64,000 nt of DNA, from IMG/VR virus record IMGVR_UViG_3300023184_000039, positions 1 to 64,000 of that record; one strand, 5' to 3'. Of the stretch, positions 13,429 through 55,713 are shown piece by piece (positions within the stretch are counted from its first letter, which is position 1; each line of letters begins with the position of its first letter). The stretch comes from a virus. The position numbers and the translations under genes were made by a program. The notes under the pieces are model-generated. The model saw only the letters and a list, made by a program, of their open reading frames with translations. It did no database searches and was not told the DNA's origin.

Positions 13429-14163
13429 CTATCTTTTGTTGCTAAAGCTAAGATACCCAGCTTTGAATCCACCCCCATACTCCTCTCGACCTTCTGTCAC
13501 GTTTGTGTAGTGTCCTATGACTGCTCGCCTTTCCACCCCACCTACCTGAGGGTGTGCCATATGAAACAACCTTCCATCCCAGTAGAGAACATCACCTTTT
13601 TTGGCATCAAACATAAGAGGGACTAGTTCTTTTGATTTTACTTTTTTGTCAATGTATGTTTTGAGAAATTCAAATAACTTCGTGTCATAGTTGATTCCAT
13701 CCGATTCGGAATTAATAAATTCCTTGATTTCTGGTTCTGATTGAACATCAAGATTGTGGGAACCAGGAATGTATGAGAACAACCCAGAATCAATTTTAAT
13801 ATCCTCTAAAGCCACCCATGCCCCCACACATCTAAAAGTAAGTTTTTCACCGTTGCGAAGCTCTGGGGCCATGTCGTAGTGCCAACTGACACCGTCTTGA
13901 TTCCAGGATATGAAAGATGCATGTATTGCTGGTGGTGAGTCAATCAATTCCAATATGTCTTGACAGATTTCGTCACATAATAATATTTCCAGAATTTCAT
14001 CTGCCTGTTTCCACACTTGGTCGCTATACCCATGCGCATGTTCAAGCAGGGATGCATCAAAAAACGACTGGTGATTGGCTAGGTGCCAATCTATATATTT
14101 ATTGATTTTATCGGCAGATATTCGCGCCTTTTTTATAACAAAACCATCTTCCGAAAAGCCCAT
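13429..14163 (-). CDS. PhyH-type 2OG/Fe(II) dioxygenase 1
   Basis: A 244-residue protein of the phytanoyl-CoA dioxygenase superfamily. WHYD (His95, Asp97) and His201 in RLFHMAHP would bind Fe(II), and Arg212/213 in GVERRAVIGHY would bind 2-oxoglutarate. Also present are VGAWVALEDIKIDSGLFSYIPGSH, the classic PhyH core, and AKKGDVLYWDG before the distal His. PhyH enzymes hydroxylate small molecules, lipids or amino acids, so the substrate cannot be read from sequence. It is one of two PhyH and eight P4H-like proteins in this island. It is transcribed leftward from a region shared with the rightward desaturases. Confidence 0.85.
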   Translation of the reverse strand: MGFSEDGFVIKKARISADKINKYIDWHLANHQSFFDASLLEHAHGYSDQVWKQADEILEILLCDEICQDILELIDSPPAIHASFISWNQDGVSWHYDMAPELRNGEKLTFRCVGAWVALEDIKIDSGLFSYIPGSHNLDVQSEPEIKEFINSESDGINYDTKLFEFLKTYIDKKVKSKELVPLMFDAKKGDVLYWDGRLFHMAHPQVGGVERRAVIGHYTNVTEGREEYGGGFKAGYLSFSNKR

Positions 14164-14281
14164 AGGGATGCATTGTATATCACCAATATCCAGTTACTGG
14201 GCAAGTGCGATAATCCCATTGAACAAAAATGCACATACCGAGCGTTCACCCAACAAGCGGCAAATCATATATGCTGGAAAT
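14164..14281. promoter_or_regulatory. Divergent intergenic region (dioxygenase/desaturase)
   Basis: 118 bases between the leftward PhyH gene and the ATG of desaturase 1 at 14282. It must hold both promoters if they are locally expressed. ATTGTATATCACC and TCATATATGC are AT-rich candidates, but I cannot assign -35/-10 pairs with confidence. Confidence 0.3.
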
Positions 14282-15214
14282 ATGCTTAATCCTAGAGATA
14301 TCACCGAAACCGAAAAAATTGTAGTTGAAAAATATTCCAATCAGTTCCCAACTGCTATTTTTTTGGGATGGATTTTGGGGTTGTTCGCCTACGTTGGTTC
14401 AGTATTATCCTGCTTGTTTTTGAATTTTACAATCACTGGTGGGGTAATTGTTGCAATTCTTTCATCATTTCTCATGTTTCCATGTATGCATGGAGCCGCA
14501 CATGGGCATTTCAGAGGGAGGGATGGCAAGCACAAAATGCTTAACAATATCGTTGGGCATAGCGCAGCAAACACTGCACAATTTTCTTTTACGCAATATA
14601 AAAATCTACACATGGACCATCATAAATATACGAACATAAAGGGTTCCGACCCAGATTATGTTCAACTCAAAAGTTATTGGTCCCTTTTTGTGTATACGGT
14701 TTCTTCTTATGTCATCCAGGTATTGCTTGCAATTCCTGTAATTAATAAAATGGTAATGAAGAAAATACCAAGGTTTGCTCGTGAGAGAATCAAAAAATAT
14801 ACAACGAGTTTTTCTGTATGGCAAGTCCGAGTAACCTACATGGCTTTTCTTGCTTCCATCTATGCTGGGTATGGAAAATACATTTTTTGGCTATGGCTAT
14901 TTCCACATTTTATTAATAGGACGAGACTTATTATTCTATTTATGTGGTTGCCACATAGACATGGAGAAACTTCTGCTTTTAGGGATACAAGAATACAAAT
15001 AACTCCAATTTTGGGAAATGCAAAATATCATAGACTATGGAAAGCAACTCTATTTGCTAGAGAAATGGACTACCACTTAGTGCATCATCTATACCCCTCA
15101 ATAATACTTCCAAACCTAGAAAAAGCCTTTATAGAGTTGAGTGATATACTCATGGATAACCAAAGTATAATAGTCAAACGATTCACAGGAGCACCATGGC
15201 ATTCCATAAAATGA
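14282..15214 (+). CDS. Membrane fatty-acid desaturase 1
   Basis: A 310-residue integral membrane di-iron protein. The three His boxes are HGAAH (70-74), HMDHH (110-114) and HLVHH (265-269), the pattern of acyl-lipid desaturases and related hydroxylases. Hydrophobic segments at about 24-66 and 130-215 give the usual four membrane passes. I use the ATG at 14282 with GGAA upstream, because further upstream extension lies antisense to the PhyH gene. It would introduce a double bond or hydroxyl into membrane lipid acyl chains or a carotenoid-like substrate; electron donors must come from the host. A paralogue follows immediately, overlapping by 19 bases. Confidence 0.8.
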   Translation: MLNPRDITETEKIVVEKYSNQFPTAIFLGWILGLFAYVGSVLSCLFLNFTITGGVIVAILSSFLMFPCMHGAAHGHFRGRDGKHKMLNNIVGHSAANTAQFSFTQYKNLHMDHHKYTNIKGSDPDYVQLKSYWSLFVYTVSSYVIQVLLAIPVINKMVMKKIPRFARERIKKYTTSFSVWQVRVTYMAFLASIYAGYGKYIFWLWLFPHFINRTRLIILFMWLPHRHGETSAFRDTRIQITPILGNAKYHRLWKATLFAREMDYHLVHHLYPSIILPNLEKAFIELSDILMDNQSIIVKRFTGAPWHSIK

Positions 15215-16119
15215 CAGAAGAAGAAGTTGGCATAGTTTCAAAGAATATTCCAAATTTTTCGTGGTTTTTGGCCACCACTGGTTTTGGTTTTATTATTGTT
15301 TTCATTGCCTCAACAATAATGACATTCTCTGGTGCCATTCCATTGTGGCTTGGCACACTTCTAAACCTATTGAGTTTTTATTCATTATTTGACACCCTCC
15401 ATGATTGCATGCATGGTCAAGTGCATGGAAAACACAAAAAACTTAAATGGATGAACAAGGCAATCGGGGTTCCTGCTGGTCTTATAGTGCAACAAGATTT
15501 TTACGGTTGGACACAGCAACACATGGCTCACCATAAATCCACAAATGTGAAGGGTTATGACCCAAACTGGAGCAATAACACTAGTGCTTTGGCGATGTGG
15601 AAGCAGACAATAATTGGATATGTGGTAATGCATATTTACTCAATACCTTTTATTGGGAAAAAAATATGTACGAAAATGTTTACACCACGTCAGTATCTAT
15701 ATTTTGTAAAAGTTTTTCCTCAACAATGGGCAATTCAGATTGTAATCAACTGGTCACTATTTTTTACTTTGGTGTTTATGGGATATGGTAAGTACACTTT
15801 TTGGTTATGGATGTTCCCTTCTTTTGTAAATAGGATTAGAATACATTATCTTTTTGTTTGGACTCCGCATAAAAATAACAAAAATACAGAATCGTACATT
15901 GATACAGCCATACACATAAGACCATTGGGAATTGACAGGATTTACTTTAGACAAGTTCTTGATTACCACCTAATACATCACCTATATCCATTGGTTCCAA
16001 GCAACAGACTCAGAAGGGTTTACAAGGATACGGAGCACATCCTAAGAAGAAATGGAACAGAATTCATTTACGGATGGGGTTGGAAAAATAAAACCGGATT
16101 AATCACCCGAAAAAAGTAA
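15196..16119 (+). CDS. Membrane fatty-acid desaturase 2
   Basis: A 307-residue paralogue of the preceding gene, with HDCMH (69-73), HMAHH (109-113) and HLIHH (258-262) and the shared segments GYGKYTFWLW and NVKGYDP. CAGGAGCACC gives a very good ribosome-binding site at 15196. The ATG at 15211 would instead give an ATGA overlap. The shared gene order and family suggest a tandem duplication that diverged. The two may act on successive positions or different lipids, but that is inference. Confidence 0.8.
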   Translation: MAFHKMTEEEVGIVSKNIPNFSWFLATTGFGFIIVFIASTIMTFSGAIPLWLGTLLNLLSFYSLFDTLHDCMHGQVHGKHKKLKWMNKAIGVPAGLIVQQDFYGWTQQHMAHHKSTNVKGYDPNWSNNTSALAMWKQTIIGYVVMHIYSIPFIGKKICTKMFTPRQYLYFVKVFPQQWAIQIVINWSLFFTLVFMGYGKYTFWLWMFPSFVNRIRIHYLFVWTPHKNNKNTESYIDTAIHIRPLGIDRIYFRQVLDYHLIHHLYPLVPSNRLRRVYKDTEHILRRNGTEFIYGWGWKNKTGLITRKK

Positions 16120-16128
16120 CCAGCCTAT

Positions 16129-17139
16129 ATGAGTAGGAATAGATATACAGCCACCACCCCGGTAATTAATGAAAAAACGATGCTGGAAATATCCAAGTAT
16201 GAAGTAATCAAACTGGGTGGGGGTGTACTTTGTTTTCGGGGTGCTGTAGATATTGACCAAGACATCGTGCTTCCGTGGATTGATAAGAATGCACAGAAAG
16301 CCCACGAAGGAAGATGGCGTTGGTTTACTGATGAAGATGGAAATAAGTATGCCTTAAACGAGGATGACAATAAATTTACATCAGAACAAATTGACGAAGT
16401 TCCAGTAAGAGTTCTTCAGCCAGTCGTCAACGACACAGAAGAACACATGGAAGTTATGTTTAGGGGTTGGGAAGACTCCATATACAAGTGCCTGATTCGA
16501 TACACGCAAGAGTATGCAATGGTGCTGGGAACAATTTGGTGGAGACAACGCGGTCATATACTTAGGTATGACAAGGGTGACTTACTCGGAATCCACAACG
16601 ACAATGACTCCAACTATCGTTCAACTGGAGGAGAAAGATTTATCCCACAAGGGCAGATGCAAATGAGACAGACGGTTGCCGCAATGCTTTACCTCAACGA
16701 TTGCATGGAGTCACCAGAACTTGTTACTGACAGAACATACTCTGGCGGTCAATTATTTTTTCCGTATTTAGATATTGAGCATCAGGCAAAAACTGGGGAC
16801 ATTTTAATATTCCCAACAAACTTTATTGCAACGCACGGAGTTCGACCCGTAACCGCAGGTGAGCGATACGGTTATCTGGAATTTTTTTCACAGGGTAGCC
16901 CTGACCCAGGGCACTACGTTGAAGTGTATGAACCAGACAAGGTTCCTAGTTGGTGTCCGGCGCACTGGCTGGATAATTACTTTGATGATTTTGCTAAATA
17001 CTCATATTGGAGTGCAAAAAATATGCCAACACCAAAAAACGAAAAAGTGGACAATCTGAATCCAGTTCTTCAAAATCGCTCCCTTGAAGGGAAAAACGGA
17101 TTAGCCAAACCCTACAAACACGCTCGGCCTGCTAGTTAA
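16129..17139 (+). CDS. P4H-like 2OG/Fe(II) oxygenase 2
   Basis: A 336-residue protein. HND (His156, Asp158), His236 in ATHGVRPVTAGERYGYL and Arg246 form the facial triad and the 2OG anchor. GGQLFFPYLDIEHQAKTGDILIFP is the conserved jelly-roll strand pair of prolyl-4-hydroxylase-like enzymes. It is longer than most of the others in the island, with an N-terminal IKLGGGVLCFRGAVDID and a C-terminal NMPTPK segment that both have counterparts in the 19104-20027 protein. It probably acts on protein or peptide side chains; substrate unknown. It is converging with the next gene: the two stop codons overlap at TTAA. Confidence 0.82.
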   Translation: MSRNRYTATTPVINEKTMLEISKYEVIKLGGGVLCFRGAVDIDQDIVLPWIDKNAQKAHEGRWRWFTDEDGNKYALNEDDNKFTSEQIDEVPVRVLQPVVNDTEEHMEVMFRGWEDSIYKCLIRYTQEYAMVLGTIWWRQRGHILRYDKGDLLGIHNDNDSNYRSTGGERFIPQGQMQMRQTVAAMLYLNDCMESPELVTDRTYSGGQLFFPYLDIEHQAKTGDILIFPTNFIATHGVRPVTAGERYGYLEFFSQGSPDPGHYVEVYEPDKVPSWCPAHWLDNYFDDFAKYSYWSAKNMPTPKNEKVDNLNPVLQNRSLEGKNGLAKPYKHARPAS

Positions 17140-17756
17140 TCTAGGGTGTAAAAGTTCGTAACAGCATATTTTTCCCCATCAATCACGGGTGCCGCGGCAT
17201 GCCACTGAAGGGCATCAAAGAAAATAATTGTTCCAGCCTGGGGTTTTATGGACATGATGTCAGGGCTGTATCCGTCTATCTTCTTTGAATAAAAACACAA
17301 TTCCCCACCCGTATAGTTGTCGTTTATATAAAAAACCGAAGATAAATGAACCACTGGAAGATTGTTTTTTTTCACCCAATCGGTAATTGACCAATCTTGA
17401 TGGGCTGGAAGGCATTGCCCATTCTTGTACCTAGCAACACCGCCACCTTGCAGACCTATCATTTTACGGTCATATGTATCAAAAATAAGTTGCTTGCACA
17501 TTATGTTGATTGTTGAAATAATCGCATTAATTTCACCCGACAAATGACTGACCCTGTGAGTACGTAGGACTCCATTTGGTACTGGTGTCATGCCCATTTC
17601 GGCCACCTGTTCATCCGTTATTCCACCGCTTGGACTGAACTCATCAAAATTTCCATATGACGCATTTATGTAAAAGTCTGATTTTTTGAGATACTCGGTA
17701 ATTTTTACAAGGGTCTCACTATTAATAAAATTGGTTCTTATAACTGTGTCAAACAT
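17136..17756 (-). CDS. P4H-like 2OG/Fe(II) oxygenase 3
   Basis: A 206-residue protein. HQD (His119, Asp121), His186 in LQWHAAAPVIDGEKYAV and Lys196 in the 2OG-anchoring position (Lys rather than Arg, as in true prolyl-4-hydroxylases). YINDNYTGGELCFY and KPQAGTIIFFD are the typical core strands. It overlaps the upstream methyltransferase-like gene by 8 bases (ATGTTTGA), suggesting co-translation. Target unknown; a peptidyl substrate is possible from family resemblance. Confidence 0.82.
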   Translation of the reverse strand: MFDTVIRTNFINSETLVKITEYLKKSDFYINASYGNFDEFSPSGGITDEQVAEMGMTPVPNGVLRTHRVSHLSGEINAIISTINIMCKQLIFDTYDRKMIGLQGGGVARYKNGQCLPAHQDWSITDWVKKNNLPVVHLSSVFYINDNYTGGELCFYSKKIDGYSPDIMSIKPQAGTIIFFDALQWHAAAPVIDGEKYAVTNFYTLD

Positions 17757-18339
17757 CTAATCTTTTTCCGTAAAAATAGTTACGCGCAATCTGATGGTCA
17801 ACAACATTGCAGTCAATCCACCAGTCCTCATGTTGTTCTTTCCAAATTAATGTATACCCAAGTCCATCAAGTATTTCCCTTTGGGCATCTCTTGTTGACT
17901 CAAGTCTCCAGTACATATTTGCATCGTGCTCAAACACAATTACATTGAATCTGTACTGTGTTAGTGGAATAGATATAAGACCAAGTAGGGTTGAGTGAGG
18001 GGTGAGCGGCTTAATGTGCGTGTCGTATCCTGCATCAATATCAACTTGCAAATAGTCAATTTGCTTAGGGAAGTCATTCTCCTTGAAATATGATAAATAG
18101 TCAAAATCTAGGGCATCGCCAAAGCATGGGTTTGTTCGATTTGATTCAAATTCTTTTCGTTTTTCCTCAACAATCTCAAAAGAAACCCCACACCATTTAT
18201 AGTCCTTTTCAAGATGATAGGTATTACTACCAATCTTTGAGTCAAAGGCGCCAAGTTCTACATAGCAACCATTTTCTTTGTAGCCACTCATCTCAATTGC
18301 AAACTTTTCTTGACTACTCACCCCAAGATACTTATTCAT
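17749..18339 (-). CDS. FkbM-like methyltransferase
   Basis: About 196 residues if started at the ATG at 18339, one base after the upstream stop. An in-frame start at 18474 would overlap the upstream gene by 134 bases. The glycine-rich motif I-like segment NGCYVELGAFDSKIGSNTY, the acidic end of strand 2 (VSFEIVEEK) and IDYLQVDIDAGYD match FkbM-type SAM methyltransferases. These O-methylate sugars or other hydroxyls in glycans and lipids. It sits between two dioxygenases in one leftward operon, which suggests decoration of a common substrate. The exact start is uncertain. Confidence 0.68.
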   Translation of the reverse strand: MNKYLGVSSQEKFAIEMSGYKENGCYVELGAFDSKIGSNTYHLEKDYKWCGVSFEIVEEKRKEFESNRTNPCFGDALDFDYLSYFKENDFPKQIDYLQVDIDAGYDTHIKPLTPHSTLLGLISIPLTQYRFNVIVFEHDANMYWRLESTRDAQREILDGLGYTLIWKEQHEDWWIDCNVVDHQIARNYFYGKRLDV

Positions 18340-18340
18340 A

Positions 18341-19114
18341 TCAATTGACAGTGACACTCTTTTGCAGTTGGTGACACTGGGACACGTCAATTCCAACATC
18401 TTTTCTAAATCCATCCACCCATTGGCGTTGGTTGTTTGTGCCATCCTCATTGGGTATGGCGACGGAATCACCATGGGTAAACCACCTAATAAACACCCAC
18501 CTATCTCCGTCCATCACTGGCGAAACTTCATGGCACCCAATGAAGGATGATGGATAAATAAGCATTGAACCATACTTTGGTTTTATTGTCAGACCCCACA
18601 TTCTGAATGCAACTTCACCACCTTCGTACTGGTCGTTTAAAAATAAAACAGATGTAAGCGTGTTTTTTATTGCGGCGAGTGATACTGGTTCAAGGGAGTC
18701 ACCCTGATAAGGAAGCGCCACATCGGAATGAGGGCCAATAGAATGTCCTGGAGAATATCTGAGCAAATGACCAGGTGTTCTGTTGGTTACACATGGGATT
18801 GCGGCTGGAAAAATTTTACAATATTCAAGTAGGCCAACATACGAACATTTATCAAACTCAGAAAACGGCCATTGGTTTTTGGAATTAACATTATACACGT
18901 ATGGCTTTGTGGGAATAATATCATTTTCAATTTCGTATCCACCTTTGTTTATTGATACATCCTTTTTTTCTCCTAGATTATTCAAACCCAAAGAGTAACC
19001 ATGTGGGAGTACCGAGTGACTAATAAAATTCAAAATAGACAAATATGTCCCTGGTTCACCATCCAGGATATCTTCAATGTAAATGATTCCGCCGCCAAGA
19101 TGTTCAGTATTCAC
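18341..19114 (-). CDS. P4H-like 2OG/Fe(II) oxygenase 4
   Basis: A 257-residue protein. HSD (His129, Asp131), His195 in GCHEVSPVMDGDRWVF and Arg205 are present, with FLNDQYEGGEVAFR and KPKYGSMLIYP core strands. Its N-terminal 120 residues differ from the other copies and may set specificity. It overlaps the upstream oxygenase gene by 11 bases and ends one base before the FkbM-like start, so it belongs to a leftward operon running from about 20823 down to 17136. Confidence 0.82.
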   Translation of the reverse strand: MNTEHLGGGIIYIEDILDGEPGTYLSILNFISHSVLPHGYSLGLNNLGEKKDVSINKGGYEIENDIIPTKPYVYNVNSKNQWPFSEFDKCSYVGLLEYCKIFPAAIPCVTNRTPGHLLRYSPGHSIGPHSDVALPYQGDSLEPVSLAAIKNTLTSVLFLNDQYEGGEVAFRMWGLTIKPKYGSMLIYPSSFIGCHEVSPVMDGDRWVFIRWFTHGDSVAIPNEDGTNNQRQWVDGFRKDVGIDVSQCHQLQKSVTVN

Positions 19115-20027
19115 TTTGATTATTTCTCACTATCTGAATTGCTCTCATGTTTTTGGTTGGGTTTTGATTTAGGTATTCAAGAAGGTCTTTTTTGAGTGTG
19201 GGCATATAAACATTGGTTGAGTACTGGGCAACATCTGGAAATTCGGCTGGGTCAATGACGGATTCATCATACTTTTCATTAGGCGAACCATAACAATACC
19301 AACCCAAATATGAGTATCTTGTTCCACTATTTACTGGTTTCACTTCATGGGCAGCCATATAATTTGATGGAAAAAATAGAATATCTCCACGGTTTGGCGA
19401 ATACTCAATATCTAGGTAGGTAAAATAGTGGTTTCCACCCATAAAATGTTCGCCAGAATTGTTGAAGTACACAATGCACGAAACATTATTTCTTTGAGCA
19501 AGTTGGTTTGCTGGATGTGGTTGTCCATATTCATAGTCGGCACTCGTGTCTGAATGTTCACCAAGAAACGATTTGTTTTTGTCAAGATATGCAACAACAT
19601 GCCCTTTTACTTTCCACCAAATACTTTTGTATGCAACTGGGTATTGTTCAATATATCTCAGCAAATAAAAATCTTTTACTTTTTCTATAAAATCAAGAGT
19701 TTTTATTGCTGTTTCATCTTTGTCAAGGTGTGGAGACGAAAAACGTTTAGGCATTTTCTCTACACCAGATGGACCAAATGCATACAAGCTTCTGTTTAGG
19801 TAATGTTTTATTTTGCCATTGTTGTCAAATACTGGTGTGTATGAAGAAGCAAACTCCGACATCACACCATTGGTGCAGAACAAATCACACCATTCCCAGT
19901 CAAGCTCAATTGCATTCCGAAACAAAATAACTCCACTACCAAGAATTTCTGCAGTGACATTATTATTCGCATTAATGTGTTCACCAGAAATATTTTGTTC
20001 AGTTTGACTAATTGTTGCATCATTCAT
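19104..20027 (-). CDS. P4H-like 2OG/Fe(II) oxygenase 5
   Basis: A 307-residue protein with HSD (His158, Asp160), His227 in MAAHEVKPVNSGTRYSYLGWY and Arg237, and TYLDIEYSPNRGDILFFP. It is a paralogue of the 16129-17139 protein: shared GVILFRNA N-terminal strand, the same TYLDIE/YLDIE core, the post-triad YGSPN/QGSPD turn and a C-terminal YMPT segment. The two lie in opposite orientation. TGTGATACTG sits 7-18 bases before the ATG and could be a -10 element giving a nearly leaderless transcript. Confidence 0.82.
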   Translation of the reverse strand: MNDATISQTEQNISGEHINANNNVTAEILGSGVILFRNAIELDWEWCDLFCTNGVMSEFASSYTPVFDNNGKIKHYLNRSLYAFGPSGVEKMPKRFSSPHLDKDETAIKTLDFIEKVKDFYLLRYIEQYPVAYKSIWWKVKGHVVAYLDKNKSFLGEHSDTSADYEYGQPHPANQLAQRNNVSCIVYFNNSGEHFMGGNHYFTYLDIEYSPNRGDILFFPSNYMAAHEVKPVNSGTRYSYLGWYCYGSPNEKYDESVIDPAEFPDVAQYSTNVYMPTLKKDLLEYLNQNPTKNMRAIQIVRNNQSEY

Positions 20028-20067
20028 GTTGCAACAGTATCACAAACAAATCATTCTCATCAATGAC

Positions 20068-20823
20068 TTAATCTTTAATAAATATGGTCTTTCCGTCCTG
20101 CACTGAATGGAAGACAAATCCATTCAGGGATAGTAAATATTTATGCATTTTCCAATAGGATTGATTGACAGTTGCAACACTATAAAGTCTTCTGGAATCA
20201 CTGCTGTTCTTCAATACTAGATACCCTCCATGTTTTAGAGAGTCAGTAAGTTTTTTCAACAATTTTGTATTTTGATGTACTTCCATTGCTTGAATTGATA
20301 TAAGTGAAAATTTCTCTGATTCATTTGCATTGGGGTCAATATCGTCATAAGATAATGCACTGTATGAATGATTCTTTGTCACATCGTACTCATCTCGAAT
20401 AAAGTTTTCATATACATACAACGAGTCATTGTTGATAAGACTCCATTTTGTATCTATATTTTTTGATTGCGCTAAAGCAAGAAATTGTATTTCGTGCATT
20501 ATGGACAAATGACCAGAAATCAAAATGTTACTTCTATCTGCGGCCAGGGTCTCAATGAAGTAAGACCTTGCACTTAATTCACCAACAGTAACAAATCCAA
20601 TATTTTTTGTGGCGAGCACATCGTAAAGCATCATCTCTGGGTCGTGGGGTGGGCGAGCAATAAGCCGCTTGTCAAGATTTAATGTATTTCTATGGTCAAC
20701 AACATTTTGACAAATTTCACCCTCTATTTCAACAAGATTCAAACCACTATATTTTGTTGTTGAATTTGTTGAAATTGCTACAGCAACACCAGCAGTAACA
20801 CTGTTCTTGGAGTTTTCAGCCAT
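20068..20823 (-). CDS. Methyltransferase-like protein (divergent)
   Basis: A 251-residue protein. The C-terminal 90 residues follow the end of a class I SAM-methyltransferase fold: FSLISIQAMEVHQN (post-motif strand), LLKKLTDSLKHGGYLVLKNSSD (helix + GG-turn + strand) and a final strand/hairpin ending in TIFIKD. The glycine-rich SAM motif is not obvious (GFVTVGELSAR is a poor match), so it may be degenerate or a non-catalytic relative. It overlaps the next upstream small gene by 8 bases. Function not assigned. Confidence 0.5.
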   Translation of the reverse strand: MAENSKNSVTAGVAVAISTNSTTKYSGLNLVEIEGEICQNVVDHRNTLNLDKRLIARPPHDPEMMLYDVLATKNIGFVTVGELSARSYFIETLAADRSNILISGHLSIMHEIQFLALAQSKNIDTKWSLINNDSLYVYENFIRDEYDVTKNHSYSALSYDDIDPNANESEKFSLISIQAMEVHQNTKLLKKLTDSLKHGGYLVLKNSSDSRRLYSVATVNQSYWKMHKYLLSLNGFVFHSVQDGKTIFIKD

Positions 20824-21124
20824 TTTTTATACCTCTAGCAATACTTAACGACCAATTTGCCAATCGAATTTCTTGACTTAATCCAAGTCTTGTTTTAAGC
20901 AAATATGCTTTCGCGCTATGTAAATTACTTCCATAAACATTTACATCTCTTGCACCAGTAATTTCATCAATTTCATTTATGACAACATCAATGGCTGGAA
21001 GAGTGGATGAATCAATGTAGGCCCCAGAAGCCATAGCAATAACAATATATTTGTATGTTGATTGCTCTATGTCCGCATCAACATCGTAGATATTGGCATC
21101 TGTTGGCTCCCATGTTTTTATCAT
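20816..21124 (-). CDS. Hypothetical protein
   Basis: A 102-residue acidic protein with no recognised family. It has an N-terminal segment TWEPTDANIYDVDADIEQSTYKYIVIAMASGAY, a helical middle (LPAIDVVINEIDEIT) and a basic C-terminal helix (RLANWSLSIARGIKNG). It is tightly packed with neighbours (8-base overlap downstream, 1-base overlap region upstream). It is one of four small linked genes within the island. Confidence 0.5.
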   Translation of the reverse strand: MIKTWEPTDANIYDVDADIEQSTYKYIVIAMASGAYIDSSTLPAIDVVINEIDEITGARDVNVYGSNLHSAKAYLLKTRLGLSQEIRLANWSLSIARGIKNG

Positions 21125-21315
21125 TACAAATCACCACCGGTAACATGTAGGCAATCAATAGATACATGATTCTTGCCGTCACCCGCAATTTTCCAAGAAC
21201 TTGTTTTTTTGTCAAAAGATACAACCTGTTGATTCAATTGTTCTTTTGAGTCTCTTGGCTGAAGGTAGGGGGCTGATTTTTCCACTTCTGGAATAATTGG
21301 AATATTGATTTCCAT
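21124..21315 (-). CDS. Small hypothetical protein
   Basis: About 63 residues from the ATG at 21315 (GAGATGTAATTTT upstream); an ATG at 21330 would overlap the preceding gene. It starts with a Pro-rich N-terminus (EINIPIIPEVEKSAPYLQP) and a beta-like core (VVSFDKKTSSWKIAGDGKNHVSIDCLHV). No family is recognised. Its single-base overlap with the next gene supports it as part of the operon. Confidence 0.45.
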   Translation of the reverse strand: MEINIPIIPEVEKSAPYLQPRDSKEQLNQQVVSFDKKTSSWKIAGDGKNHVSIDCLHVTGGDL

Positions 21316-21319
21316 AAAA

Positions 21320-21568
21320 TTACATCTCATTCAATTTTGTTAATGCTGCAATTTGTTTTTTTAGGGAAGCATGGTTGTTGTAATCTGTTGCATTGTCATC
21401 CGTCAGGGCAAAAGGAATGTCGTAAGAATCTCCAATTGATGCAATATCAATGCCCAACAATGCACACAATGTATAAATTGAGTATTCAAGAAGGTCTGTG
21501 GCTTCTGCTTTTGCTTCAATTAATCTTTCTGCAGATAACAATGTTGTGCGCACCGTCATATTATTCAC
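21320..21568 (-). CDS. Small hypothetical helical protein
   Basis: An 82-residue mainly helical protein: SAERLIEAKAEATDLLEYSIYTLCALLGID, then an acidic loop and a Lys-rich C-terminal helix (LKKQIAALTKL). No family is recognised. It overlaps the upstream gene by 8 bases. It could be a chaperone-like or structural small protein; nothing in the sequence decides. Confidence 0.45.
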   Translation of the reverse strand: MNNMTVRTTLLSAERLIEAKAEATDLLEYSIYTLCALLGIDIASIGDSYDIPFALTDDNATDYNNHASLKKQIAALTKLNEM

Positions 21569-21806
21569 CTCTCAAATTTGCAATTTGTTCTTCGAGTTTT
21601 TCAACTTGCAAACCCAAACTTTTGATATGTTCATGGTTTGGGAGGGGGGTGGAATCGGCACCAACTGCTGGGGTGAATGTTTTTGGTTCAAATGCATCTG
21701 TATCCATTTCTTCTGTGAGCAAAAGCAAAAATAGGCGATTTTTCAGTGTCGTAAGAGCGTCGTTATATATCGACAACTTTCGTGAGTCCGATAGGTTGAA
21801 TTCCAT
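21561..21806 (-). CDS. Small hypothetical coiled-coil protein
   Basis: 81 residues from the ATG at 21806, which has GGGAGATGCA in front. An earlier ATG at 21818 is inside that ribosome-binding site. A helical N-terminal half (LSDSRKLSIYNDALTTLKNRLFLLLL), a Pro/Asp-rich linker and a C-terminal coiled coil (IKSLGLQVEKLEEQIANLRGE) are visible. It is the first gene after a likely leftward promoter at about 21841-21853. Confidence 0.5.
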   Translation of the reverse strand: MEFNLSDSRKLSIYNDALTTLKNRLFLLLLTEEMDTDAFEPKTFTPAVGADSTPLPNHEHIKSLGLQVEKLEEQIANLRGE

Positions 21807-21840
21807 TGCATCTCCCAATAATGTTAAAAATATTGTGTTC

Positions 21841-21853
21841 CTGTATTATACAG
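21841..21853 (-). promoter_or_regulatory. Likely leftward -10 box within palindrome
   Basis: CTGTAT-T-ATACAG is a perfect palindrome. On the leftward strand it contains TATAAT (21850-21845), preceded directly by TG. It lies about 40 bases upstream of the start at 21806. The -35 match is poor. The palindrome could be an operator covering the -10 box. Confidence 0.45.
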
Positions 21854-21886
21854 TACCACATAGAGAAATTGGGTAGTTGTGGTGTG

Positions 21887-21917
21887 CACCATCCCTACAC
21901 CCATGAGGGAATTGGTG
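21887..21917. other. Strong hairpin downstream of 21924 gene
   Basis: CACCATCCCT (21887-21896) pairs with AGGGAATTGGTG (21906-21917), with a small internal bulge, just after the stop of the leftward oxygenase at 21924. No T-run follows on either strand. It may act as a Rho-dependent stop, a 3'-end stabiliser or a weak terminator. Confidence 0.35.
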
Positions 21918-21923
21918 CTGTGA

Positions 21924-22592
21924 TTACTCGTAGTGAAACAACCCATTGGACAGGGCTACTGGCGGGCACTCTTTGTGCCAAAGGTTGATTACAAGCACGC
22001 TTCTTTTTCCAGATACCACCGGTGTAGTCCCATGGACAGTGTGCCCAGCATCAAACATTATCAACCTATTGGGACTACAAAAGATTCTTTCGCGCTCCTC
22101 AATTGGTGACGGTTCTATTTTCTCAAGACCATCCTGGGTTCCATTTTTGACAATGGTTTTATGTATTTCCAGATAGCCACCTTCCACCCCAGTATTGGTG
22201 TTTGGATAATATACCGAACCCCAGTGTGGTCCGTTCAATATTTTTGTATTTGCATATTCAAAAGTATCCTCATCTAGATGGGGTGGCAAATTCTGACCAA
22301 CTTCAAAAGTCCGAGCCCAGTACTCAAACCCAAGAACATCCTCCTCAGCAAAAGGCATGTTGGGTCGCCAGATAGCCTCAATCAAAATTTTTGCAGTTGT
22401 ATTGGCGCTACCCTTCCACCAACCATCCCAAAACATGTATGGAGCAAATACCTTTGCACCAGGTTCGTGGTATTGATTTAACCTAGAACCAATGCCCTCT
22501 TCGTTCCCCATCGATTGAGGGAACAAATTCCTATCATTCTTAATCAAGGATAGTAATTTTTCATCTTTGATATAATTATCAATAACAAGCAT
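21924..22592 (-). CDS. P4H-like 2OG/Fe(II) oxygenase 6
   Basis: A 222-residue protein. HLD (His105, Asp107), His187 in AGHTVHGTTPVVSGKRSVLVINLW and Arg197 are present. GSVYYPNTNTGVEGGYLEI and NRLIMFDAG are core strands. The N-terminal half is Trp-rich (WDGWWKG, EAIWRP, FEYWAR), unlike the other copies. It has its own upstream non-coding gap (22593-22636), so it may be transcribed separately or with the DUF6065 gene. Confidence 0.8.
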   Translation of the reverse strand: MLVIDNYIKDEKLLSLIKNDRNLFPQSMGNEEGIGSRLNQYHEPGAKVFAPYMFWDGWWKGSANTTAKILIEAIWRPNMPFAEEDVLGFEYWARTFEVGQNLPPHLDEDTFEYANTKILNGPHWGSVYYPNTNTGVEGGYLEIHKTIVKNGTQDGLEKIEPSPIEERERIFCSPNRLIMFDAGHTVHGTTPVVSGKRSVLVINLWHKECPPVALSNGLFHYE

Positions 22593-22636
22593 AATTTCCT
22601 TAACTCATCATAAAAAACTAATATTTTAAACTAAAT

Positions 22637-23338
22637 TTATGTTGGTTCATTTAGCTTTGGGAGACCGGTAAACGATGGTCCAATTTTATTTCCATCAGCA
22701 TCAATTCCAGTCCTAATGCCCCTTGTCCATGTCCAGGGGTTATTCTTGTTGTTGGCCATTTTCATATTACCGTATTTTTGTCTACTTTTCATTAGTTCTG
22801 GTTTATCCCAAAGGTTTTCAACCACGAACTCAGTGTTTTCGTGAACCAAACTATCAAACATTGAAAAAAACATAAACGGCATTCCGGCCTCAAAGGTCAC
22901 TGGTTCTCCAACTTTGGTGATTGCCCAGTTCATCTGAAATTCGTCTGGCCACCAACTACTTGGGATTATCGCAGACAACGGTGATGCTCCATCAACTAGA
23001 TAGTTTGGTGAACCACCAATCCATGTCTCGTATCCATCTTCCGTACCAAAGGCCCATCCAGTCGAAAACGAAACCATTCCGATTATCCCGCCGTAGGCAA
23101 TTTGACGACCCTCATACTCCGCTCCAGAAATTATTGTTGGCACAGTGTTCCCACCGTCCCACTTCGCAACAACATCCTGCTGGAGGATTAACTCCCACCC
23201 ATAGACATTTGCATACGTCATCGGAAGACACTGGTATGCATGCTTGTTGTATGTGTTATCCATCCATTCACGCTTAATCCGTGATTGTTTTATCTCTGGT
23301 GGATTTTGTGTTGTTCTTGTTAATGTAAATTTAGGCAT
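22637..23338 (-). CDS. DUF6065-family protein
   Basis: A 233-residue protein matching my recollection of the DUF6065 pattern: CLPMTYANVYGWEL near residue 37, WDGGN, FGTEDGYETWIGGSPNYLVDGASPLSAIIPSSWWPDEFQMNW, and EAGMPFMFFSMF. The family is found in bacteria and phages, often near 2OG oxygenases, with no known reaction. The many aromatic and acidic residues suggest a small-molecule or peptide-binding beta fold. It overlaps the upstream oxygenase gene by 8 bases, indicating co-translation with oxygenase 7. Confidence 0.7.
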   Translation of the reverse strand: MPKFTLTRTTQNPPEIKQSRIKREWMDNTYNKHAYQCLPMTYANVYGWELILQQDVVAKWDGGNTVPTIISGAEYEGRQIAYGGIIGMVSFSTGWAFGTEDGYETWIGGSPNYLVDGASPLSAIIPSSWWPDEFQMNWAITKVGEPVTFEAGMPFMFFSMFDSLVHENTEFVVENLWDKPELMKSRQKYGNMKMANNKNNPWTWTRGIRTGIDADGNKIGPSFTGLPKLNEPT

Positions 23339-23975
23339 TGTAACCAGAACTGGGCTTTATGTCGTGATTCCTGTCATTGTAGTCAAACATGGTGACCGCA
23401 ACATACTTCGTTCCGCTTGTTACTGGTTTTGATGCATGAGCATAGGTGTATGTTGATGGGAACATAATTATGTCACCAGCTTTTGGCGTGTATGTCAAGT
23501 CCATGAATGGAAACCATAATTCCCCACCATCATAACCATCATTAAGGTATAGAACGGAAGAAACGGTGCAGGTGTAGGAGAATCCATGGTCGGTGTGAAC
23601 CTGAAAATGCTGTCCAGTGTTATAGCGAACATAATTGATTGCCTCCATGTATTCCATGGTTATGTTGTAGCGCGACTGATAGTCGGATAAGCATTTTTGC
23701 AAACAAGTTTTCGTGTCCCCATAGATACTCCTCAGTCCTTCAAACTGAGGAGGGAGATGCTGCATGTGCATCTCACCAATTTTGCAGTCAACACAGTCTC
23801 GGTATTCTGGCATTTTTTGGCTATGCCCAACCAATGCCTCCATCCACATGTATGGGGATGTTTGGCTATTGCCGACTGCTTCCTCAAGTCTTTGGGGAAT
23901 GCTTAATTCCACGGGTATTGCATTCGTGTATACGATTATGGCCAACTTTGGGTCACCTAAAAAGTAATTTTCCAT
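23331..23975 (-). CDS. P4H-like 2OG/Fe(II) oxygenase 7
   Basis: A 214-residue protein. HTD (His127, Asp129), His180 in YAHASKPVTSGTKYVAV and Lys190 as 2OG anchor are present, with LYLNDGYDGGELWFPFMDLTYTPKAGDIIMFPS. This is one of the closest matches here to the prolyl-4-hydroxylase consensus, including Lys in place of Arg. A Cys-containing segment CVDCKIGEMH (61-70) precedes the core. It is coupled to the DUF6065 gene and diverges from the peroxidase-like gene at 24058. Confidence 0.85.
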   Translation of the reverse strand: MENYFLGDPKLAIIVYTNAIPVELSIPQRLEEAVGNSQTSPYMWMEALVGHSQKMPEYRDCVDCKIGEMHMQHLPPQFEGLRSIYGDTKTCLQKCLSDYQSRYNITMEYMEAINYVRYNTGQHFQVHTDHGFSYTCTVSSVLYLNDGYDGGELWFPFMDLTYTPKAGDIIMFPSTYTYAHASKPVTSGTKYVAVTMFDYNDRNHDIKPSSGYNA

Positions 23976-24057
23976 GCCTGGATGTTATCAGGCGTAATTT
24001 TAAAATATGGTTATGTGGTAACATTTTGGGTAATAGTCAAACAATACGGAGAACCAA

Positions 24058-24960
24058 ATGAGCATGATTCAAGAGGGTGTATCGGCGCAAAATGAAGTGA
24101 TTCTGCCGATATCCATATATGACATATCCGTGTCATCGGCTGATGGAAAGAAAAAAGATATCCTTTCTGGTCGACACGGCAAGGTGACTCTTATATTTAA
24201 TGTTGCGGCTGGTTGTGGGAATATCCCCCAACATTCAGTCCTTGAGGAACTACGACAAATCTACAAAGATGAAAAAGACTTTGACATTATTGCCATCACG
24301 GTTGATGACTTTACCTGCCACGGCTACCCAGAATTTCAAAACGGCTTAAAGGCTTACGCTGAGGCAAACAACCTAGACATGACCGAAGGACAGGTGGCCC
24401 AGTATTATGCCGAAACCAATTTTGGAACGACATTTGAATTCACCGAACTGACAAACGGAAGATACGACAAACACAATTACAGCGATGGGTATAGTCCGAC
24501 AAGGGATAAAATCCAAGAGATGCATCCATTGTGGTCCTACTTGACCGGTGCATATAGCGCAGATATGGGTGACAATGGGCTTCCGTATAGCGTTGAAGAA
24601 GTTCCATGGTCAGATGAAAAACCAAACTATCAACCCAACAAAAAGCCTTACGACCCACTAACGGGCAACTTCACCAAGTTTTTAATTGACAGAACTGGAA
24701 CAAAAGCTACACGCTATGCAAGTGGGTTCCTGCTTGGGGAGAGGGATATCAATAATCACACATTTCCTTGGGTCACAGAAAAATACCAACCCAATGGAAA
24801 GCGTGACTGGATGCCGGTAACAGAAGAAGGAAAAGACCTCAATGCACATTTAAAAGTTGAAAGTGATACAGGTGTGTGGCCAGCCAAATGGCAAAGGGAC
24901 GGAATTGACCACTCACTAGAAATAATCAAGACTGACATAGATAGGTATTTACTTTCATGA
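24058..24960 (+). CDS. Glutathione-peroxidase-like thioredoxin-fold protein
   Basis: A 300-residue protein. GKVTLIFNVAAGCGNIPQHSVLEELRQIY (residues 41-69) matches the GPx active-site strand, with Cys53 where Sec/Cys sits, followed by the strand DFDIIAITVDDFTCHGYPEF in place of the usual FPCNQF. Two long insertions (about 95-210) replace the compact GPx loop. FTKFLIDRTGTKATRYASGF matches the late strand region. GPx-like proteins reduce peroxides with thioredoxin or glutathione. Here activity is uncertain because Gln/Trp partners are not clear. GGAGAACCAA precedes the ATG. It overlaps the PhyH gene by 4 bases (ATGA). Confidence 0.65.
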   Translation: MSMIQEGVSAQNEVILPISIYDISVSSADGKKKDILSGRHGKVTLIFNVAAGCGNIPQHSVLEELRQIYKDEKDFDIIAITVDDFTCHGYPEFQNGLKAYAEANNLDMTEGQVAQYYAETNFGTTFEFTELTNGRYDKHNYSDGYSPTRDKIQEMHPLWSYLTGAYSADMGDNGLPYSVEEVPWSDEKPNYQPNKKPYDPLTGNFTKFLIDRTGTKATRYASGFLLGERDINNHTFPWVTEKYQPNGKRDWMPVTEEGKDLNAHLKVESDTGVWPAKWQRDGIDHSLEIIKTDIDRYLLS

Positions 24961-25721
24961 CGTTGACCGAACAACATGTTTCCACAAAAACTGTGTTGAC
25001 CAATGAACAAATATTAGATTTCCAAACTAATGGATTTCTAGTTTTAGAAAAATTCATAACACCAGAATTGATTGATGCCCACATGAGCAACCCGAAACGA
25101 AACCATTCGGAAAAAGTTGACCATAAAGCAGATGGTTCAGTTCTAAATATACTCTGTGGGGATGAAGTTCAGGAAGTACTCAAACAACTGGATTACGGTG
25201 TTGCCCTCCATTCTGCCGTAACGTACGAAACCAGTTCGGAAAAACCGTGGCATCAAGACGTGGTTCTTACATCAAAATTTGGTGGTGCGCAATATGTTGG
25301 AGTTTGGGTTGCTTGTGAGGATATTTCCGAAGATAGTGGGCCGTTTCAATTAATCCCAGGTTCTCACAAGTGGGATATTGATTACAAGAATGTCTATGAT
25401 TTACCAGAAGAAGAATTGGCAGTGGGTTCACAGAAAAGAATAGAACTTGAAGTTGAGAAAAGAAAATTGGACTCAAGAGTGTTTAAGTTTCATGCAAAAA
25501 AGGGAGACATTATAGTCTGGCATGGACAATTATTCCATTCTGCAGCGACACCAACAAACAGAAATTCAACAAGAAAATCCTTAACTGGACATTATTGCAA
25601 TGCATATGCGCACAATCGGCAAAATGAAAGCCCCCCAACAGTGGATTTCATCTTAAAGCAGATGGATTCGTTAACCGAGATGTATGCTCGCAACAATAGT
25701 GGTGGTTACTACTTCCTTTAA
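24957..25721 (+). CDS. PhyH-type 2OG/Fe(II) dioxygenase 8
   Basis: A 254-residue protein. WHQD (His99, Asp101), a distal His in QLFHSAATP and Arg in NSTRKSLTGHYC are present. VGVWVACEDISEDSGPFQLIPGSHKW is the canonical PhyH segment, shared with dioxygenase 1 (13429-14163). It has an N-terminal FQTNGFLVLEKFITPELID typical of PhyH enzymes. It is coupled to the peroxidase-like gene and followed 7 bases later by a dehydrogenase-like gene, a rightward three-gene operon. Substrate unknown. Confidence 0.87.
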   Translation: MTLTEQHVSTKTVLTNEQILDFQTNGFLVLEKFITPELIDAHMSNPKRNHSEKVDHKADGSVLNILCGDEVQEVLKQLDYGVALHSAVTYETSSEKPWHQDVVLTSKFGGAQYVGVWVACEDISEDSGPFQLIPGSHKWDIDYKNVYDLPEEELAVGSQKRIELEVEKRKLDSRVFKFHAKKGDIIVWHGQLFHSAATPTNRNSTRKSLTGHYCNAYAHNRQNESPPTVDFILKQMDSLTEMYARNNSGGYYFL

Positions 25722-25728
25722 ACATCTT

Positions 25729-26289
25729 ATGGCAAATGTTGGAATAGTTTCCCTTGGCTCAATGGGCACATCATTGGCATACTCGTTATCTATTTCTGGG
25801 CATAACCTATTCTGGGCATCAGATGGTCGTTCAGAAAAAACGAAGATGAACAAAACACTGCTTGCAAATAACGATATTTTGGTATCTGATGTAGGTAATA
25901 TTTCGGAACTTTCCAAAAAGTGCGAATTCATATTCTGTGTTGGACGAGTGAATATCGCCGAAGAAACCGTGATTAGTCTGAAGGATGCTGATTACTCTGG
26001 GGTTCTCGTGGATTGCAACACCCTGTGGGACGAAGTTGAGGAGAATAGATACTACGAATTGCTGAATGATTCAAAAATTCAGTATGTAGATTGTGCCCTG
26101 AGGGGATATCCAATTAATATCGGTTCTTTGAGCGACGGACTTAAAAGGGTGATGCTATTGAGCGGCCAAAAATCCGACAATGTAGCCGAGTTGTTTTCCG
26201 ACGGAATATGGAAAACGGTTATCAGTGAGAATAAAGTAAAGAGTTACAATCGATGGATTACCGCAAATGCACCGGATATGGATTTATAA
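25729..26289 (+). CDS. 3-hydroxyacid dehydrogenase-like NAD-binding protein (short)
   Basis: A 186-residue protein. NVGIVSLGSMGTSLAYSLSISGHNLFWAS is the Rossmann GxGxxG-like N-terminus of the 6-phosphogluconate/3-hydroxyisobutyrate dehydrogenase family (here G-S-L-G-S-M-G). EFIFCVGR and VDCNTLW follow in the expected order. The usual C-terminal helical domain (about 110 residues, with the catalytic Lys) is missing or strongly reduced, so it may bind a nucleotide without dehydrogenating. I take the ATG at 25729, 7 bases after the previous stop. It converges with oxygenase 9. Confidence 0.6.
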   Translation: MANVGIVSLGSMGTSLAYSLSISGHNLFWASDGRSEKTKMNKTLLANNDILVSDVGNISELSKKCEFIFCVGRVNIAEETVISLKDADYSGVLVDCNTLWDEVEENRYYELLNDSKIQYVDCALRGYPINIGSLSDGLKRVMLLSGQKSDNVAELFSDGIWKTVISENKVKSYNRWITANAPDMDL

Positions 26290-26296
26290 AAACAAA

Positions 26297-26923
26297 TCAA
26301 TCGTTTTGTATTACCGAGTAAAATGCAGGGGTGGTAAATCTCTCTCCAGACGTAACTATCTTTACTCCATGTAAATAATTTATATCACCTGGGTGGACTA
26401 CTGCTAGTCCTGGTTCTGGCTTTACGGTTATTCCATGCTGTGGGTAGTACAGTTCACCGCCGTCAAAATCATCGTTATAGTAAAAAAGGGAATTTATATC
26501 GTAGTCAGGAAATGGATTTGGCAGTCCGTTATTCATCTGCTTATCTGCGTGCGGCTTTTGTTCAATTCCCGGAAACCATCTGATTATGCACGGAGGCCGA
26601 TTTGACAGCGACACATTAAATAACTCACTTGCCAAAGAATTCATTTTTGCAATGTATGAATCAATCAATTCGTAAATGCCCAAATCAACTGATTTAAGAA
26701 TATCCCCTGGACACTGTCGGTCATTCCAGTAGGAGGCATCGTATGTGCAGGTTCCGTCCTCTGAATATATATTGACCGGGGATGGATTTTTCCATTGCTT
26801 ATTGGTTCTTGCGAATTGCTCTATTCTCTTGGCGTCATCAAGGTCAATAAAGTTTTTGACAATATGTATGTTTTCAGGACCAGTGCCAAAATGTCCAGGC
26901 GCAATCTTCCATGGGGATGTCAT
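26297..26923 (-). CDS. P4H-like 2OG/Fe(II) oxygenase 9
   Basis: A 208-residue protein. HAD (His125, Asp127), His185 in YLHGVKIVTSGERFTTPAF and Arg195 are present, with FYYNDDFDGGELYYPQHGITVKPEPGLAVVHPGD. It has GHFGTGPENIHIVKNFIDLDDAKRI at the N-terminus, the usual first helix/strand of this family. It is likely co-transcribed with oxygenase 10 and the sulfotransferase upstream. Substrate unknown. Confidence 0.82.
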   Translation of the reverse strand: MTSPWKIAPGHFGTGPENIHIVKNFIDLDDAKRIEQFARTNKQWKNPSPVNIYSEDGTCTYDASYWNDRQCPGDILKSVDLGIYELIDSYIAKMNSLASELFNVSLSNRPPCIIRWFPGIEQKPHADKQMNNGLPNPFPDYDINSLFYYNDDFDGGELYYPQHGITVKPEPGLAVVHPGDINYLHGVKIVTSGERFTTPAFYSVIQND

Positions 26924-26935
26924 TGGAGAATGATA

Positions 26936-27784
26936 TCAGATGAAATTCTTGTACTTTTCCACCACGCTTGGGATGATTGTTCCAGTGCCATTTTCATTAA
27001 GATAAACATATGGACGCAGTAGTTTTCCATTCTGTTTACTTATTTCCGTCCATTCTTCAATTCCATATGTGGCAACATTTTTGTGCCATTCTTCTGTTCC
27101 AGCAAATGGATATTTAATAAAATTCCGTGCCATAATTTTATCTCCCCCAGTAACACATTTTACAGAATGAAAATACGGCTTTCCACCTGGGAATAATGGC
27201 GAACCAGACGGGAAAACTAAAATATCTCCAGATTTTGGTTTATATGTAAATACTTTATCCAAAACAAAAAATTGAATTTCTCCACCGTCATAGTCATCTC
27301 CTAGGTAGGTAATACAGGTTATAAGAAATTTTTCCCCAGGAGAACCCATTGATTCTATTTGAAAATCAGAATGATACCCCATTGCTAGATTTCCAAAAAG
27401 TGCATCATTGGAACGTTCTTGAATTATTTTATATCTGGCGAGGCTTGGAGTCGTAACAAAAGAACCATCCGGCAATGGGACGTTGTTTGATGTTACATAA
27501 TTTGACATAGCACAGGATGTTGCCAATCCCAGTGATTCGTGTAGGAAAAACTCATCCACAAATTCACCATTGACCGTAATTGTCTCACCTAGCAATTCTA
27601 CTTTTTCGCTTGAGTATTTACCAAATGAAAGCCAGTCTGTCCACTCTTCATATATATATTTACCTTTATGAATTTGTTCTGAGTTGCGTATTATATTAAG
27701 AAGGTGCTCGTGGTTTGGAAGTAGTTTTCGGTAGACACAAATCAAATCGTGAATGTATTCTTTTTCAAAATTTAACCCAAACAT
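26936..27784 (-). CDS. P4H-like 2OG/Fe(II) oxygenase 10
   Basis: A 282-residue protein. HSD (His138, Asp140), His206 in YFHSVKCVTGGDKIMARNF and Lys216 are present, with YLGDDYDGGEIQFFVLDKVFTYKPKSGDILVFPSG. An insertion (GSPLFPGGKPY) precedes the distal His. N-terminal 120 residues are specific to this copy. The start overlaps the end of the sulfotransferase gene by 13 bases, a strong sign that both act in one pathway. Confidence 0.82.
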   Translation of the reverse strand: MFGLNFEKEYIHDLICVYRKLLPNHEHLLNIIRNSEQIHKGKYIYEEWTDWLSFGKYSSEKVELLGETITVNGEFVDEFFLHESLGLATSCAMSNYVTSNNVPLPDGSFVTTPSLARYKIIQERSNDALFGNLAMGYHSDFQIESMGSPGEKFLITCITYLGDDYDGGEIQFFVLDKVFTYKPKSGDILVFPSGSPLFPGGKPYFHSVKCVTGGDKIMARNFIKYPFAGTEEWHKNVATYGIEEWTEISKQNGKLLRPYVYLNENGTGTIIPSVVEKYKNFI

Positions 27785-28488
27785 AGTTCATTCTCCCTTA
27801 CTGTTTCGTAGAGTTCGTGGTCAATGCTATTCAATTTTAATATTTCAGAAATTTCGGATTTGCTCAATTCAAAACCAATACGAGGAGAAACATTAGAATG
27901 AATATTGGCAACTGGTGAACCTAGAATATTTTCTATTTTTGCAATTATCGCATTTCTGTTTTCTAGAGTAAAAATATCAATATTGTTATCACGTATTGAT
28001 TCAAAAACTTTTTCAATCGGCGGTGATTTTGGCAAATGTAGTAAACCATATTCATCTGTGTAGGTTTTTGTTGACAAATACGAACTTTGCATATTTTCTT
28101 CCCCATCAAATCCAGCAAATTCGTAATCTTTTATTTTTGGGTGTGTTCCATACACAAATTTTAAAAATAGTTTTTTATTGGATAGATTTTCCAAATTATG
28201 ACGATGGTGATATGCAAACAGACTCATAAGTCTAGAAACTGGTTCTCGAATAATTGAAAAAGAATAGTCAAACTGAAGATATTCAAATGGGTCTAAGGCA
28301 AAATGCCCGCAAAGATAGTACTTTGGGTGTTGTTGAAAGAGTAATTTTGGTTTTCCGCTCACACCCCAAAAATCTCTACCACCAGAAACTCGGGGAGCAG
28401 ATTTATTTTTTTGTATTTCTGTAGTTAGGGATGTACCAGAAGTTTTTGGTATGTGAAGAAAGTACACAGCACTGTATTCTTTTTCCAT
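27772..28488 (-). CDS. Sulfotransferase-family protein
   Basis: A 238-residue protein. FLHIPKTSGTSL (residues 10-21) is the 5'-phosphosulfate-binding loop of the sulfotransferase superfamily (K-T-x-G-T-S/T). FSIIREPVSRLMSLFAYH has the R...S pattern of the 3'-phosphate-binding site. These are the two PAPS-binding signatures. It should transfer a sulfate from PAPS to a hydroxyl of a sugar, lipid or protein. PAPS must come from the host; the PAPS-reductase-like gene at 54565 is not a PAPS synthase. It forms an overlapping leftward unit with oxygenases 10 and 9 and sits directly after the FN3/FFPP gene. Confidence 0.78.
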   Translation of the reverse strand: MEKEYSAVYFLHIPKTSGTSLTTEIQKNKSAPRVSGGRDFWGVSGKPKLLFQQHPKYYLCGHFALDPFEYLQFDYSFSIIREPVSRLMSLFAYHHRHNLENLSNKKLFLKFVYGTHPKIKDYEFAGFDGEENMQSSYLSTKTYTDEYGLLHLPKSPPIEKVFESIRDNNIDIFTLENRNAIIAKIENILGSPVANIHSNVSPRIGFELSKSEISEILKLNSIDHELYETVRENELCLG

Positions 28489-31737: not shown

Positions 31738-31738
31738 A

Positions 31739-55704: not shown

Positions 55705-55713
55705 TGTTGTTTA

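Follow-up and report, generated by a model that had tools for sequence, protein, structure and literature searches.

The first 64,000 bases of the viral record IMGVR_UViG_3300023184_000039 (140,645 bases in all; the stretch analysed is referred to here as the window) carry an island of ten genes for 2-oxoglutarate (2OG)/Fe(II) oxygenases, bordered on each side by a protein with an aromatic-proline repeat of the type PPxF. Such tails and such oxygenases are linked across divergent uncultured phages of aquatic origin, and the linkage is reciprocal and oriented. The island is best explained as a fibre-maturation cassette whose enzymes would hydroxylate the phage's own proline-aromatic tails, a reading to which a probability of roughly 0.6 is given, and the two flanking (PPxF)n proteins are the likeliest substrates. 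A previous sequence-only reading of the window, which had drawn attention to the ten enzymes, suggested candidate peptides without specifying any and overlooked these two proteins.

The two tails mark the limits of the island with precision. A scan of the whole record for stretches of 20 residues with a high content of Pro and Phe/Tyr/Trp/His detected exactly two aromatic-proline repeat proteins, one per island edge and both beside fibre-type genes; every 2OG gene of the record falls between them, and a search of the other 76 kb found no further 2OG gene. On the left, a fibre-like protein (11010–12284, plus strand, no Pfam match) overlaps by 4 bases the gene of a protein with an fn3 domain (12281–12835, plus strand, PF00041 4.4e-7), in which a (PP[F/H/V]F)6 repeat precedes a Cys-rich C-terminus. 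On the right, a second fn3 protein (28510–29241, minus strand) bears a C-terminal (PP[F/H]F)14 tail that has 28 PPxF prolines and ends in PPSFK, next to a tail fibre with an Mtd_N N-terminus (29245–31755, minus strand; PF18454 7.6e-13; phrog_454, tail fiber, 3e-44). The C-terminus of this fibre matches phrog_18179, and in other phages the relatives of the fibre precede the cassette on its upstream side. The tail protein gene comes directly after the fibre gene and, in two loci (L174 and L203), PPxF stretches share a single open reading frame (ORF) with the phrog_18179 C-terminal domain family; this adjacency and these fusions support the putative display of the tails on the virion. Among the 14 DNA units of the right-flank tail, 13 are distinct, yet they encode only three peptide unit types, so that the repeat is conserved at the peptide level. 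The right-flank protein has no match in INPHARED by tblastn, and its repeat string was not found in the open-access literature (for this and the other literature searches, subscription journals and preprints lay outside the scope).

The linkage was measured in IMG/VR loci with hidden Markov models built from the relatives. To recruit PPxF loci, only a DNA pattern of the repeat was used, and the downstream counts cover the loci that could be read for 5 kb or more on that side. A 2OG gene lies within 5 kb downstream in 38 of 44 of these loci and upstream in 1 of 27, while DUF6065, a protein also encoded in the island, is downstream in 31 of the 44. After dereplication, 30 of 36 PPxF clusters are still positive for a downstream 2OG gene (Fisher 6.5e-13). 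Control loci with a collagen GPX pattern have 2OG genes downstream in 0 of 29 cases and upstream in 1 of 47, a contrast that is somewhat inflated, because models made from the relatives favour detection in PPxF loci; this bias bears less on the upstream/downstream contrast and on the reverse test. In this reverse test, loci recruited by DUF6065 with 5 kb readable upstream present an aromatic-proline tail upstream in 40 of 43 cases and 2OG genes in all 43 (median of seven where both flanks are readable), whereas the tail appears in 0 of 120 control loci. DUF6065 itself splits into 21 clusters at 60% identity. In fibre loci with 5 kb downstream, tail and 2OG gene also occur together: these loci comprise 30 with both, three with the tail only, five with the 2OG gene only and eight with neither (p = 5.6e-4).

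Fibre-related loci also share a recurrent gene order: the fibre, the PPxF-tail protein, optional sulfotransferase-like, glutathione-peroxidase (GPx)-like and oxygenase 9 genes, and then a core formed by oxygenase 9, oxygenase 7 and DUF6065, followed by oxygenase 6 and the larger oxygenases 2 and 5. In loci that lack the canonical repeat, a variant aromatic-proline tail is encoded by the gene at the same position, for example PPGFFSPPGFFAPP (L051, L052) or PPSFPPDF. Further 2OG families recur in the cassettes, namely a PF13759 protein, present in 73 of the 172 loci surveyed, and a protein of TauD type, present in 27. The conserved order supports the previous proposal that the genes are modules of one pathway and, because it recurs in many independent contigs, an assembly chimera of several phages is unlikely.

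Several features of the tail proteins were observed in the fetched loci. Among 167 non-redundant tails, 159 are complete, and 85 of these terminate in Phe-Lys although the proteins that bear them otherwise differ; this terminus is a possible C-terminal recognition or attachment signal. Three PPxF-tail proteins (L130:6071-7393, L175:8063-9304 and L208:5879-6847) have C-terminal Hint/intein-like domains that could cleave and expose the tail, the matches (Hint_2, Intein_splicing, PT-HINT) being weak and all below cut-off. In one lineage, represented by 35 non-redundant cases (among them L014, L029, L050, L143, L184 and L353), the ORF of the PPxF tail lacks a start codon. An upstream ORF of the form M..KRK..KPTVAA would be joined to it through a +1 shift at CGGA, which is invariant, with variable adjacent wobble bases; CGGA was a requirement of the search, and just seven start-less tails lay outside it. 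The fused product of both ORFs is seen in frame in the homologue L052. This arrangement is a candidate for programmed +1 frameshifting, which would limit the display of the tail.

The ten oxygenase ORFs are all intact and span 13429–27784, and the division into eight prolyl 4-hydroxylase (P4H)-like and two PhyH-like enzymes made in the sequence-only reading holds, with Pfam backing nine of them and PHROGs oxygenase 6. The PhyH-like enzymes are oxygenase 1 (13429–14163, minus strand, PF05721 1.2e-16) and oxygenase 8 (24957–25721, plus strand, PF05721 1.5e-21). PF13640 matches oxygenase 2 (16129–17139, plus strand, 1.6e-8) and, all on the minus strand, oxygenases 3 (17136–17756, 3.6e-13), 4 (18341–19114, 4.8e-12), 5 (19104–20027, 5.9e-12), 7 (23331–23975, 8.8e-13), 9 (26297–26923, 3.3e-5) and 10 (26936–27784, 6.8e-7), of which 7 and 9 are core genes of the cassette. 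For oxygenase 9 this match scores 25.2 bits in hmmscan, just below the 27-bit cut-off, and exceeds the cut-off in the genome search; the protein also matches phrog_61 (6.5e-15) and its orthologues in relatives reach 3e-107. Oxygenase 6 (21924–22592, minus strand) has no Pfam match and is assigned by phrog_274 (7.8e-8) and by its iron triad. The HxD...H triad is present in all ten, and the basic anchor of the 2OG carboxylate is Arg in oxygenases 1, 2, 4, 5, 6, 8 and 9 and Lys in 3, 7 and 10, just as first described.

These enzymes are under strong purifying selection. Medians of the nonsynonymous to synonymous substitution ratio (dN/dS), taken from independent close pairs, are 0.055–0.066 over the oxygenase, GPx-like and DUF6065 families (0.059–0.066 for oxygenases 2, 5, 6, 7 and 9; 0.06 for DUF6065) which, together with the intact triads, bears out the claim of selection rather than decay. 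Oxygenase 7 was the oxygenase chosen for modelling. Its AlphaFold2 model from a 24-sequence input (predicted local distance difference test 91.4, predicted template modelling score 0.88) shows the double-stranded beta-helix fold (Foldseek E 1.3e-10), and the residues invariant in the 24 sequences include H127, D129, H180 and the anchor K190. The PDB ranking is led by the algal P4H 3gze with (Ser-Pro)5, followed by PBCV-1 vCPH and by the Pseudomonas putida P4H with EF-Tu. From the model, oxygenase 7 is confidently predicted to have a peptidyl prolyl 4-hydroxylase fold. It shares fold and triad with the algal enzyme, which acts on Ser-Pro repeats, at an identity of only 17%, and its own specificity is a prediction.

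According to the proposed mechanism, the phage would produce in the infected cell fibre-tip proteins whose long tails are of the type (PP[F/Y/H/W]F)n. The neighbouring P4H-like oxygenases, using Fe(II), O2 and 2OG, would hydroxylate these tails before the virion is assembled or while this takes place. The modified residue would most likely be proline; further groups might be added by the other oxygenases and by the sulfotransferase-like protein. In this way, a very hydrophobic repeat could become a soluble, stiff and extended polyproline-like appendage, presumably adhesive and of tuned stickiness. A bolder version can be advanced only tentatively: a so far undescribed and widespread phage system, whose line of several 2OG enzymes would convert the aromatic-proline fibre tail into a polymer with many modifications (hydroxyproline, hydroxylated aromatics, perhaps sulfate), similar to a repeat-core modified peptide or a mussel-type adhesive on the virion. 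In some lineages, frameshifting or Hint-domain cleavage would tune the display of the tail.

In addition to the inflated collagen contrast, several points weigh against the maturation of the tails by the cassette. Neighbouring genes could have stayed together through common descent of the fibre locus, with no direct function behind it, although the 21 clusters of DUF6065 speak for considerable divergence. A repeat this simple would hardly seem to call for ten to twelve enzymes, and tail hydroxylation does not account for the PhyH and di-iron desaturase-like enzymes of the island; the usual substrates of PhyH enzymes and desaturases are small molecules or lipids. PolD is also among the Foldseek matches of oxygenase 7, a tool with which peptidyl and free-amino-acid hydroxylases are inseparable. 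The multi-2OG cyanophages that were examined have no aromatic-proline tail near their enzymes. Finally, it is from linkage, selection and fold that we infer the hydroxylation of the tails.

The rival that survives best, although it is considered unlikely, is that a small molecule, lipid or glycan, either of the host surface or decorating the virion, is what the oxygenases modify, and that the fibre tail binds the product instead of being the substrate. It would accommodate the PhyH, desaturase-superfamily, reductase and sulfotransferase-like proteins of the island, and some 2OG genes of the cyanophage S-SCSM2R do lie among glycosyltransferases. Nevertheless, the recurrent core of the 172 loci consists of P4H-like oxygenases and DUF6065, no glycosyltransferase family was found among the commonest unassigned clusters scanned, and the linkage partner is a proline-rich peptide. 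The desaturases had no homologue (0 matches) in related cassettes, and may be separate cargo. Rather less probable is a linkage devoid of function, in which the fibre region is a hypervariable hotspot that collects unrelated accessory oxygenase genes. The guanine-plus-cytosine content of the island (0.37–0.42, against mostly 0.43–0.49 around it), its mixed strands and its variable accessory genes would fit such a hotspot, but the strict order, the 5'-3' asymmetry of the PPxF loci, the outcome of the reverse test, the variant tails at the same position and the strong purifying selection do not. A reprogramming of the host, by draining 2OG or making succinate with effects on nitrogen regulation or energy, has been proposed for cyanophage 2OG oxygenases (PMC3037559) and is very improbable here, since it leaves ten different enzymes beside fibre tails unexplained and the nearest terminase relatives of this phage (43% identical, from Gordonia phages) are not cyanophage.

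Part of this picture was already known. Mimivirus hydroxylates the collagen structural repeats that it encodes (PMC9546862), and both mimivirus (L230 and a prolyl hydroxylase) and PBCV-1 (vCPH) resemble the proposed cassette in that the virus encodes 2OG hydroxylases together with repetitive structural proteins that are modified. The cassette differs from these viral collagen hydroxylases in belonging to phages, in the PPxF instead of Gly-X-Y repeats and in the many enzymes per cassette. No Gly-X-Y substrate was found near the island, the neighbouring tails being PPxF and the GPX loci being free of the cassette, and collagen-like repeats were rejected as a general substrate partner on the absence of downstream 2OG genes from the GPX loci. 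Phages with many 2OG genes have been described as well: the cyanophage S-SCSM1 has 24, within a report of numerous lake and sea phage 2OG oxygenases of uninvestigated function (PMC9602691), other cyanophages have up to five (PMC3037559), and pelagiphages have eight non-orthologous ones plus ferrochelatases (PMC9599517). The cyanophages, S-SCSM1 included, are like the island in that a single phage has numerous divergent oxygenases of the PF13640/PF05721 families, and the pelagiphages share several 2OG genes close together, although their described partner is a ferrochelatase and not a fibre tail. The similarly named S-SCSM2R is unlike the island, with scattered 2OG genes and no aromatic-proline tail in the 35 kb read. 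The judgement that ten oxygenases in one phage are exceptional cannot be upheld, as 37 of 50 records of fibre relatives have PF13640 above cut-off, with up to 12 genes and several tight clusters; since these relatives, S-SCSM1 and the pelagiphages carry many, the finding does not lie in the number as such. What is new is the link of 2OG oxygenases to an aromatic-proline fibre tail, which was not found in the open-access literature. In INPHARED, the matches of oxygenases 7 and 9 are all weak and come from cyanophages and marine single-cell viruses; no aromatic-proline tail lies around the matches in six of these records, and a megablast search with the structural region gave no match.

Regarding the remaining genes of the island, the core gene DUF6065 (22637–23338, minus strand) is assigned by PF19541 (1.4e-42; 146.3 bits for a curated cut-off of 26.6). 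Its predicted fold resembles dUTPase (template modelling score, normalised to target, up to 0.76) and looks like a divergent form of it. Viral contigs carry this family very often (of 599 stretches picked by a pattern, 583 were confirmed); no relative was found in 84,980 prokaryote genomes with a single degenerate pattern, none in INPHARED by tblastn, and no mention in the open-access literature. A glutathione-peroxidase-like protein of thioredoxin fold (24058–24960, plus strand, PF00255 2.6e-7) recurs in the cassettes, with homologues at 14 relative loci. The sulfotransferase-like protein (27772–28488, minus strand), first gene after the tail protein, has homologues at 13 relative loci, and its PF03567 match is below threshold (E = 0.0094; 16.5 bits for a curated cut-off of 22). 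Tyrosine sulfation as a common theme is unsupported, as the tails of the window lack Tyr though this gene adjoins. The accessory FA_desaturase-superfamily di-iron enzymes (14300–15214, PF00487 2.2e-25, and 15196–16119, PF00487 2.5e-25, both on the plus strand) form a tandem pair whose closest models are carotene hydroxylases. An NAD-binding, 6PGDH-like reductase is encoded at 25684–26289 (plus strand, PF03446 9.1e-5).

All other island genes are on the minus strand. The desaturase and DUF6065 assignments of the sequence-only reading are retained and its sulfotransferase is weak, while no library searched supports its two methyltransferases: the product of 17749–18474 has no match in Pfam, PHROGs or NCBIfam, and that of 20068–20823 is a conserved cassette protein with no convincing family match and 51 family members near DUF6065 in the 172 loci. 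Three small proteins follow, an ORF at 20816–21124 and two more at 21320–21568 and 21561–21818, where small ORFs recur in the relative loci. As to overlapping genes, those of oxygenase 10 with the sulfotransferase-like gene, of oxygenase 7 with DUF6065, and of oxygenase 3, 17749–18474 and oxygenases 4 and 5 are real, but oxygenases 9 and 10 are separated by a 12-base gap. Away from the island, the window encodes a PAPS-reductase-like protein beside a ParB-like protein (54565–56481), a pair also present in Arthrobacter and Mycobacterium phages. Outside the window, L011:19-6606, which starts near 104 kb of the record, is a single ORF of 2195 residues in which WYL, exonuclease and GNAT are weakly matched.

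The linkage described here gives the 2OG oxygenases of phages a concrete and testable candidate substrate. If the proposed maturation of the tails is true, phages would build hydroxylated fibre material, which to our knowledge has so far been known only from eukaryotes and their giant viruses.

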